64,000 bases of DNA, from assembly GCF_025244665.1 (NCBI RefSeq), contig NZ_CP104205.1:2291001-2355000 (forward strand), given 5' to 3'. Below, piece after piece: positions 49,786 through 52,342 of this stretch (position 1 is its first letter; the number at the start of each line of letters is the position of its first letter). The notes below the pieces were generated by a model. That model searched no databases. It saw only the letters and a program-made list of their open reading frames with translations, and was not told where the DNA came from. The position numbers and the translations under genes are program-made. The stretch is from Maribacter litopenaei (GTDB taxonomy: Bacteria; Bacteroidota; Bacteroidia; Flavobacteriales; Flavobacteriaceae).

Positions 49786-50915
49786 CTAAATTTTCCTATA
49801 AATGGATTTCAATTTACTTGGAGTAATCAACGACTTCCAATTTTCTCCCAAAGCATTTTCCCATAAGGGTTCCATACCCAAGGCTACAGAAGTCATAATA
49901 TCAAAATCATCTTCATTAAGATCAGCACAAATTCCACTTGGCAATTCGATTTGATGTTTTTCCTTCATTTTATTGAAGAGAGCAACACCATCTGGATAAA
50001 ACTCTTCTAAATACTGGAATACCGAGACAATTGCCAAGACCATGTTTTACTCCTAGTCGGTATCCTAATCCATAACTCATGGCATGCGCTACTCCAACTT
50101 GTGAATAGGCTATGCTCATACCGCCATGCCATGATGCCATCATCAACTTGTCACGCGATTCTTCCACCGTCAAAGGGTCAAGAAAAACTTCTTTACAAAG
50201 CTCCAAAGCCTTTTCACCATAGCTTTGACTAAATGCGTTTAAAAAGGTTCCTTTTAAACTTTCTATACAATGTATAAAACAGTCCATTCCTGTATAAAAC
50301 CATTGGTCTTTTGGCACGCCTTTCGTAAGTTCAGGGTCCAGGATAACTTGATTAAAAGTGGTATAATCTGAATTAATGCCTAATTTTCTCTGTGGCCCAA
50401 GAAGAACTGTAGTCCTAGACACTTCTGCACCGGTACCGCTGATCGTGGGAATACCAACATGATAAAGCGATTTTTTTTGAACCAGGTCCCATCCTTGATA
50501 ATCCGCCGAACTACCTGGGTTTGTCAACATAATGGCAACTGCCTTTGATAAATCCAAAAGGGTTCCCCCTCCAATTCCTACTATACCGGAAGGAAGTTCC
50601 GGATGCGTTTCTTGAATCAAACGTACCAAAGCATCTACCTGATTTGTTTTTGGTTCTTCATCCGCAGAAATAAAAATTATCTCGGTCTGAAAATATTTGT
50701 GGTATTCTGGTCTGCAATTGCGAACCTTCAAATACATCATCCACCAAAAAAATAAAAGGGGCCTCGGAATTTTTTCTTTTTGGTAACAGAATATACCCAA
50801 GTTGATCAAAACTTCCATTGCCAAAAACGACCCTAGGAACCATAGGGAAATTCCTAAACCTTTCGGATACTCTTGTAGGTACATTTTTCATTGCCATTCC
50901 ATTACTGGTCTCCAT
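49786..50915 (-). CDS. KdnB-like iron-containing alcohol dehydrogenase (Kdo 8-oxidase family), two frameshifts
   Basis: About 376 aa group III Fe-alcohol dehydrogenase. [20 protein letters not shown] is the NAD loop, [18 protein letters not shown] and [18 protein letters not shown] follow, and metal-site histidines lie in [16 protein letters not shown] and VKHGLGNC. Close resemblance is to KdnB, which with aminotransferase KdnA converts Kdo to 8-amino-Kdo in Shewanella; the kdsB neighbour supports this. No KdnA is visible. Breaks: near 50718 (one extra base, EGSQL to [11 protein letters not shown]) and 50021-50027 (minus TCTCGGT; CCGG repair gives HGLGNC then [12 protein letters not shown]). 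Confidence 0.8.
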
Positions 50916-50924
50916 CCATTCGTT

Positions 50925-51623
50925 TTAAAGGTAATTCAACACATCCGTTAATTTTGCTACCGTCATATATCCACTTTTTCCCTCAGGTTCTGCCACCTCC
51001 TCGTGCTGCCATGTAGTATGGAATGGAACATGAACGGCCTTTGCCCCAATATTAACCAAAGGAAGTACGTCAGATTTAAGGGAGTTACCAATCATCAAAA
51101 AATTCTTTACGTTAATTTCCAAATGATCCAGCAAATCCTGATAGTTTTTCTCCTTTTTGTCGCTCAAAACCTCAACATGATGAAAATACTCAGAAAGATT
51201 GGATCTTTCCAACTTTCTTTCTTGATCTAAAAGATCACCCTTGGTCAAAACTATCAACCTATATTTCCCTTTCAACCTTTCAAGTACCTCTACCACACCT
51301 TCTAGAATCTCAACGGGATGCGAAATCATGTTCTTCCCTAAATTTAAAATTTCCGATAAAGTTGATTGCGATACCTGATTATTGGATAATTCTAGGGCCG
51401 CCTCTATCATGGACAACATAAAACCCTTGATACCATATCCATATAGTTCCAAATTCTTTATCTCCATTTTAAAGAGTTCTTGGTCTATCTTATTTTTGGT
51501 TTCATACTTTTCCAATAGGTCTGCAAAAGCTTCCTCTGCATCCCGAAAATAGGTTTCATTTACCCAAAGGGTGTCATCGGCATCAAAACCAATGACCTGT
51601 ATCTCATCAAAGTTTATTTCCAT
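50925..51623 (-). CDS. HAD-superfamily phosphatase
   Basis: 232 aa, intact. Catalytic DxDxT as GFDADDTLW (residues 12-20), motif [10 protein letters not shown], and motif III/IV in [16 protein letters not shown]. Cap type C1 by spacing. It sits between kdsB (10-bp overlap) and the KdnB-like gene (9-bp gap), so a sugar phosphate of the Kdo pathway is a reasonable substrate guess, but it does not look like the small KdsC type and substrate is not proven. Confidence 0.82.
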
Positions 51624-52342
51624 ACAGCTTTTGCCTTTTCCAAATCCTCCGGGGTATCAATTTCAATACCCGTTACCGTGGTTTCTACCATTTTAATTTT
51701 TTTTCCGTATTCCAAATATCTAATGGCCTCAATTTTTTCGGTAGCCTCCAATTGGAGCATGGGTAAACGTTGAAAATCCATCAAGGCGCTTTTTCTAAAG
51801 GCATAAATTCCTTTATGTTTATAGTAACGGGTATATTCACTTTTTGCCCGTGGATATGGAATGGGGGATCTTGAGAAATAAAGGGCAAAGTTTCTATTAT
51901 CCACGATTACCTTTACCGTATTGGGATTTTTTATTTCATCCTCATCATCAATTCTAACCATTAAAGATGCCAAATCTATCTCTTTATCCTTATCATTTTT
52001 AAATACCTCAATGACTCCGATCAAACTTTCTCTATTTGTAAAAGGTTCGTCGCCCTGTACATTTACTATAATATCAACATCCATAGCCATAACTGCCTCT
52101 GCGATCCTATCACTCCCACAATCGTGTTCCTTTTGACTCATAAGTGCTTTACCACCTTCCCCAACTACAGCATCATAAATAATGTCACTATCCGTAACCA
52201 CATACACCTCGTCAAACAATCCTGTGTTGACCGTAGCCTGATAAGTTCTTACAATTACTGGCTTGCCCAATAAATCCTGCATCAGCTTTGCCGGAAATCT
52301 AGACGCAGCATAACGAGCTGGTATCATTGCTATTATCTTCAC
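51614..52342 (-). CDS. kdsB: 3-deoxy-manno-octulosonate cytidylyltransferase
   Basis: Activates Kdo (or 8-amino-Kdo) as the CMP-sugar for lipid A core assembly. 242 aa, intact. [20 protein letters not shown] is the nucleotide-binding start, with [31 protein letters not shown] and [13 protein letters not shown]. Overlap with the HAD gene shows translational coupling. In Shewanella a KdsB variant prefers the 8-amino sugar, made by KdnA and KdnB, which gives meaning to the KdnB-like neighbour. Confidence 0.93.

Follow-up and report, generated by a model that had tools for sequence, protein, structure and literature searches.

The closest described counterpart of the locus analysed here is found in Shewanella oneidensis, where, as reportedly described by Gattis et al. 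2013, the pathway to 8-amino-3,8-dideoxy-D-manno-octulosonate (Kdo8N) consists of KdnA, KdnB and a Kdo8N-specific KdsB. In Shewanella, kdsB lies within the kdnA/kdnB cluster. Going by the available excerpts of the relevant papers, the sugar is regarded as peculiar to that genus: all Gram-negative species save those of Shewanella are stated to use Kdo (PMC4465638), Kdo8N is called a hallmark of Shewanella (PMC6357163, where C8 of the sugar in strain HM13 is placed near 44-45 ppm), and Shewanella lipopolysaccharide (LPS) is described as containing Kdo8N, unlike all LPS known to date (PMC3210612). Structures of KdnA and KdnB are cited in an excerpt of PMC5036845, and an excerpt of PMC5125639 classes KdnB as FeADH3 (cd08184) and places Kdo8N in members of Shewanella. 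Among the literature matches listed, likewise available in part and drawn from a search outside which most subscription papers lie, there was no report of Kdo8N in Flavobacteriaceae.

The kdsB-kdnB row and the distant kdnA

The 64-kb stretch of Maribacter litopenaei DNA that was analysed (C1:2291001-2355000; the window) carries a compact gene row on its minus strand. The window coordinates confirmed the arrangement originally noted, in which kdsB, a HAD-family hydrolase gene and a kdnB homologue abut or overlap, kdsB and the HAD gene sharing 10 bases. The features are:

52342-51614, minus strand: kdsB, predicted CMP-Kdo/Kdo8N synthetase, 242 aa, GTG start; NF003952 271 bits, PDB 1gq9 182 bits
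51662-51664, minus strand: codon of KdsB Glu227, the residue tracking kdnA/kdnB presence
51656-51658, minus strand: codon of KdsB Asp229, which stands opposite Asp235 in the alignment with E. coli KdsB
51623-50925, minus strand: HAD-family hydrolase; best PDB match 3ddh, 232 bits
50924-49786, minus strand: kdnB homologue spread over three frames, putative Kdo 8-oxidase; 5k8c matched by the middle frame with 325 bits
49740-49207, minus strand: PlsC-like acyltransferase; PF01553 52 bits, cut-off 23

Two frame breaks divide the kdnB homologue into segments at 50924-50658, 50887-49970 and 50046-49786, a feature that the original prediction had not mentioned. Its middle frame scored 328 bits against 3rf7 and 325 bits against Shewanella KdnB (5k8c), compared with 92 bits for the next PDB chain; the grouping with unrelated Fe-dependent alcohol dehydrogenases (Fe-ADHs), which the original prediction had named as evidence against itself, was not seen in this comparison. 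Asp, His, His and His, presumably the metal ligands of Fe-ADHs, are all kept in the window KdnB. All 90 aligned rows share these four putative ligands, the rows comprising 87 family proteins, the window protein, 5k8c and a repeated reference row. In G066, a genome of the same genus, kdnB is intact (375 aa), as are the HAD and acyltransferase genes, and the kdsB frame has 243 aa. KdsB of the window lies well above the NCBIfam cut-off for NF003952 (271 bits vs 193) and keeps its catalytic Asp98 and Asp229, both catalytic aspartates of E. coli KdsB being aligned.

As noted originally, the window is devoid of a KdnA aminotransferase, none of the 13 places in the genome matched by the PF01041 profile falling within it. 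The genome-wide search that had been proposed identified one of the 13 as KdnA (C1:1491408-1492460; L005:1459-2511), about 0.85 Mb from kdsB, which supports the first of the two alternatives then raised, a KdnA encoded elsewhere. This protein scored 428 bits with 5k8b (53% identity) and 173 bits with the next PDB chain. Its Lys163, which is presumably the PLP lysine, is kept within FDxVKTITCGEGG, a stretch common to the window genome and 5k8b. The KdnA frame has 350 aa here and 410 aa in G066, and the adjoining gene was taken by eye for ribB. The PDB comparison of aminotransferases covered L004 and L006 besides KdnA, and both were rejected, L004 being nearest to WbpE (278 bits vs 127 for 5k8b) and L006 to 1o61 (183 bits vs 88); L008 and L010-L016 are the weaker PF01041 places. 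The genome also encodes kdsA (374 bits, cut-off 314) and kdsC (139 bits, cut-off 107; C1:1629681, outside the window), the latter being the sole TIGR01670 match over the cut-off, together with a waaA-related fragment that, at 127 bits, falls short of the cut-off (363).

The HAD hydrolase resembles the HAD protein of solved structure 3ddh over residues 8-230 of 232. It matched TIGR02253 with 58 bits, below the cut-off, and differs from KdsC proteins in having no TIGR01670 match among its NCBIfam matches; it was therefore rejected as KdsC, the true kdsC lying elsewhere. Its proposed share in the Kdo8N pathway was not upheld by the family sample described below, since the HAD gene adjoins kdsB in 7 of the 32 genomes lacking a linked kdnB and is absent from that place in 19 of the 88 that have one. 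It is probably a syntenic neighbour outside the pathway.

Distribution in Flavobacteriaceae and the wider phylum

In 120 genomes from 119 genera of the window's family, taken to be Flavobacteriaceae, KdnA (cut 1e-60) and kdsB-linked KdnB occurred in the identical set of 88 genomes (Fisher p 7e-30, a value that ignores kinship), with kdnB no more than 1423 nt from kdsB. Among these kdn-positive genomes, the kdsB locus was found with the HAD gene and kdnB in 69, with KdsB and KdnB fused in 15, and unfused without the HAD gene in 4. A PlsC-like acyltransferase gene was found near kdsB in 77 of the 88, compared with 13 of the 32 others. The position of kdnA was far less constant: it lay less than 20 kb from kdnB in four genomes (G022, G115, G051 and G107). 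In 30 it was farther away but shared the contig of kdnB, and in the remaining 54 the two genes were on different contigs. In G022, kdnA, kdsB and kdnB are contiguous. The family resembles S. oneidensis in having kdsB in the cluster, and 5k8c and 5k8b have clear homologues in the genome analysed here. It differs in that 84 of the 88 genomes have kdnA either on a contig other than that of kdnB or more than 20 kb away, with the HAD gene beside kdsB-kdnB in 69 and the fusion in 15.

The fused KdsB-KdnB proteins are encoded by single open frames of 611-643 aa (L037:1267-3105, L042:685-2514 and 13 further). They are confined to one part of the KdsB tree and have no HAD gene beside kdsB. The fusion label needs two changes on this tree because G067, a genome on a long branch and without the pair, falls inside the fused group; this is read here as one fusion followed by one loss in G067.

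One of the 32 genomes scored negative, G084, does have a kdnA-kdnB pair, diverged and with broken frames, at a site apart from kdsB (L281:2898-4841), with a KdnB-like frame of 267 aa and KdnA-like pieces of 48% and 37% identity over two frames. Its KdnA fell below the 1e-60 cut, and the genome was scored as lacking the pair. The neighbouring genes, named by eye, are glycosyltransferase-like and sugar dehydrogenase-like, giving the locus a polysaccharide-like appearance, and residue 227 of the G084 KdsB is Gly. In the other 31 negatives, where the genome-wide search was made at 1e-60, no KdnA was found within 4 kb of kdsB. A KdnA match of 38% identity in G047 was set aside as a paralogue by a cut of our own.

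In a sample of 296 genomes of the phylum, partly shared with the family sample and searched with 1e-60 cuts, KdnB was found in 22. KdnA matches occurred in 83 genomes; 19 of them exceeded 320 bits, all within the 22 genomes with KdnB, and the remaining 64 (38-48% identity, 209-240 bits, 63 in one family) were considered paralogues, again by our own cut. Outside the Flavobacteriaceae there were ten kdn-positive genomes. In G260, G208, G303, G362 and G309 about 1 kb or less separates kdnA from kdnB, and in G150, G230, G241, G264 and G366 the two genes are not close. In G309, kdsB lies between the two genes, judging by coordinates. The linked order is taken here to be the ancestral one. Divergent neighbouring kdnA-kdnB pairs, with KdnA of 43-45% identity and Cys or Ser at KdsB position 227, were observed in L326, L329, L334 and L335, and possibly represent a second subtype with another product.

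KdnB without a strong KdnA was found in three phylum genomes, G233, G259 and G283. G233 keeps the order kdsB-HAD-kdnB-acyltransferase and has no KdnA match at 1e-60; its KdnB (L342:3643-4722) reads DQRH for DHHH, two metal ligands being replaced by Gln and Arg, and its KdsB has Gly at position 227. In this natural experiment, transaminase loss, oxidase decay and Gly coincide. The other two genomes, from another family, carry a lone KdnB of 42-44% identity that is separated by some 16-20 kb from another, second kdsB copy (L343 and L344), and a role of this KdnB in capsule or O-antigen formation is possible.

Residue 227 of KdsB

KdsB was found in all 120 family genomes, and comparison of the 88 kdn-positive with the 32 other sequences singled out position 227, with a column divergence of 0.83 and 0.57 for the next column. 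All 88 have Glu there, and the other 32 have Gly (27), Ser (2), Glu (2) or Ala (1). What is new is that Glu at this position, two residues before the Mg-binding aspartate, follows kdnA/kdnB. Matching alignment ends place Asp229 of the window KdsB opposite Asp219 of A. aeolicus KdsB, which an excerpt of PMC3149649 gives as a Mg-A ligand. E. coli KdsB and KpsU, CMP-Kdo synthetases of the same family as the window KdsB, differ from it in having Gly in place of Glu227.

The correlation extended to further genomes. Glu was found in four of four additional kdn-positive genomes within the family and in six of six outside it, while four more, divergent kdn-positive genomes (KdnA 43-45%) have Cys, Cys, Cys and Ser; it was found in none of 29 further kdn-negative genomes (32 rows) and in none of the three with a lone KdnB (six rows). 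The phylum negatives used for this check were 40 genomes hand-picked from about 270, and the residue counts leave out 11 of the 57 further genomes, in which KdsB was not found at 1e-20. Combining the rows, Glu227 is present in 98 of 102 kdn-positive and 2 of 64 other sequences, whereas the next-best column, Lys177, gives 88 of 102 and 8 of 64. These counts exclude the named loci and the E. coli rows, as well as the second KdsB copies (G138, G146, G124, G259 b, G283 b and c), all of which lack Glu; despite their lone KdnB, G233 and, with their first KdsB copies, G259 and G283 were entered as kdn-negative. Eighty named loci, mostly of Maribacter, Zobellia, Arenibacter, Cellulophaga, Kordia and their kin, which point to Flavobacteriaceae as the family sampled, were considered separately and yielded KdsB in 78, with Glu227 in 77 and a gap in one, their genera overlapping those of the family sample.

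On a KdsB tree calculated without column 227, a greedy script selected 13 disjoint pairs, in 11 of which Glu was present on the kdn-positive side only; the reverse was found in none and two were equal. Many branches of the tree are weakly supported, and the well-supported, starred ones give five pairs, too few for significance (sign test p 0.125-0.25). The two genomes that keep Glu227 without kdnA and kdnB, G019 and G101, form a sister pair on the KdsB tree. They count against the proposal made below, as do the four divergent kdn-positive genomes with Cys or Ser and the broken pair of G084 with its Gly. Being acidic and near the active site in sequence, Glu227 could favour a protonated 8-amino group, and Lys177 could also matter. 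The excerpts of papers that were consulted did not list the KdsB residues touching C8 of Kdo, and the role of Glu227 is the most doubtful step of the mechanism proposed below.

Proposed pathway and alternative explanations

The locus is best explained, with a probability of roughly 0.82, as half of a Kdo8N pathway whose genes are split between two chromosomal sites, in which the KdsB is adapted to Kdo8N and provides CMP-Kdo8N for lipid A. KdnB would oxidise free Kdo at C8 to the aldehyde 8-oxo-Kdo, and KdnA, encoded elsewhere on the chromosome, would transaminate this to Kdo8N; the adapted KdsB would activate Kdo8N to CMP-Kdo8N, from which WaaA would add Kdo8N to lipid A. The co-occurrence of KdnA and KdnB, the KdsB-KdnB fusion and the contiguity in G022 make Kdo, 8-oxo-Kdo, Kdo8N, CMP-Kdo8N the most likely sequence of intermediates. 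Both these reactions and the presence of Kdo8N in LPS are predictions drawn from the Shewanella enzymes; what the genomes themselves display is homology, putative catalytic residues, gene linkage, the fusion in relatives, the joint occurrence of the genes and the Glu that follows them.

The most serious competing explanation, although an unlikely one, is decay of the pathway in this strain, where kdnB and kdnA would be pseudogenes and the LPS would contain plain Kdo. It agrees with the two frame breaks in kdnB and the KdnA frame that is short beside that of G066, and also with the 13 changes in kdnA/kdnB presence on the wider KdsB tree, from which losses of the pair are likely to be common. 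However, the window and 13 kb around kdnA were compared by tblastn with frames of at least 150 aa from 32 loci of relatives, two belonging to G066 and 30 taken from the 80 named loci. Of 32 matched places, 12 were spread over several frames (window 21394-61704 and L345), kdnB and the gene beside kdnA included, some of the 32 being opposite-strand overlaps and maybe not genes; the breaks therefore look assembly-wide. Completeness of the genome record is given as 81.7%, and the kdnB breaks are read here as probable assembly errors, although pseudogenes would give the same picture. Furthermore, residue 227 of KdsB is still Glu, and both genes are intact in G066. Somewhat less probable again is a pathway producing 8-amino-Kdo for capsule, O-antigen or another glycan and not for lipid A, as may occur in other genomes, judging by G084, with its broken pair beside glycosyltransferase-like and sugar dehydrogenase-like genes and apart from kdsB, and by G259 and G283, with KdnB 16-20 kb from their second kdsB. 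Against this, KdsB gave a single match at 1e-20 in 116 of the 120 family genomes, that of the window included, and the KdsB linked or fused to KdnB in the 88 genomes is this sole match or, in G045, the better of two; it should therefore be the one supplying the CMP-sugar for lipid A.

The absence of kdnA from the window had also left room for a pathway stopping at oxidised Kdo, the second alternative raised originally. Since kdnA is encoded outside the window, and since all 88 family genomes with kdsB-linked kdnB possess it, an 8-oxo-Kdo end product is very improbable. It is hardly credible that the dehydrogenase is an Fe-ADH unrelated to KdnB and serving ordinary alcohol metabolism: the KdnB model was absent from the NCBIfam scan, and other Fe-ADH families were matched, but all of them below their cut-offs, while the gap between 325 and 92 bits in the PDB comparison and the fusion with KdsB in relatives speak for KdnB.

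Beyond the split Kdo8N pathway in this genome, a wider proposal may be put forward, for which, taken as a whole, the odds are a little short of even. Kdo8N, not Kdo, would link lipid A in most marine Flavobacteriaceae; a Gly-to-Glu exchange in KdsB would make it a CMP-Kdo8N synthetase and would revert upon loss of kdnA/kdnB; and the KdsB-KdnB fusion of one clade would join oxidation and activation in a single protein. If most marine Flavobacteriaceae do make Kdo8N, the statement that it is restricted to Shewanella is wrong for a large family, with possible consequences for the use of Kdo-azide to label such communities and for how their LPS is sensed. Residue 227 of KdsB can serve as a genomic marker of a single letter, and exchanging it by mutation would be a simple way of testing sugar specificity.

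Searches of plasmid sequences did not find KdnB or KdnA, and no Shewanella was present among the best 20 of 65 plasmid records with KdsB. A scan of viral sequences gave two relatives of 31-39% identity. Elsewhere in the window, positions 40602-47333 of the minus strand hold a 2243-aa frame of near-identical tandem repeats, similar in appearance to a surface protein.
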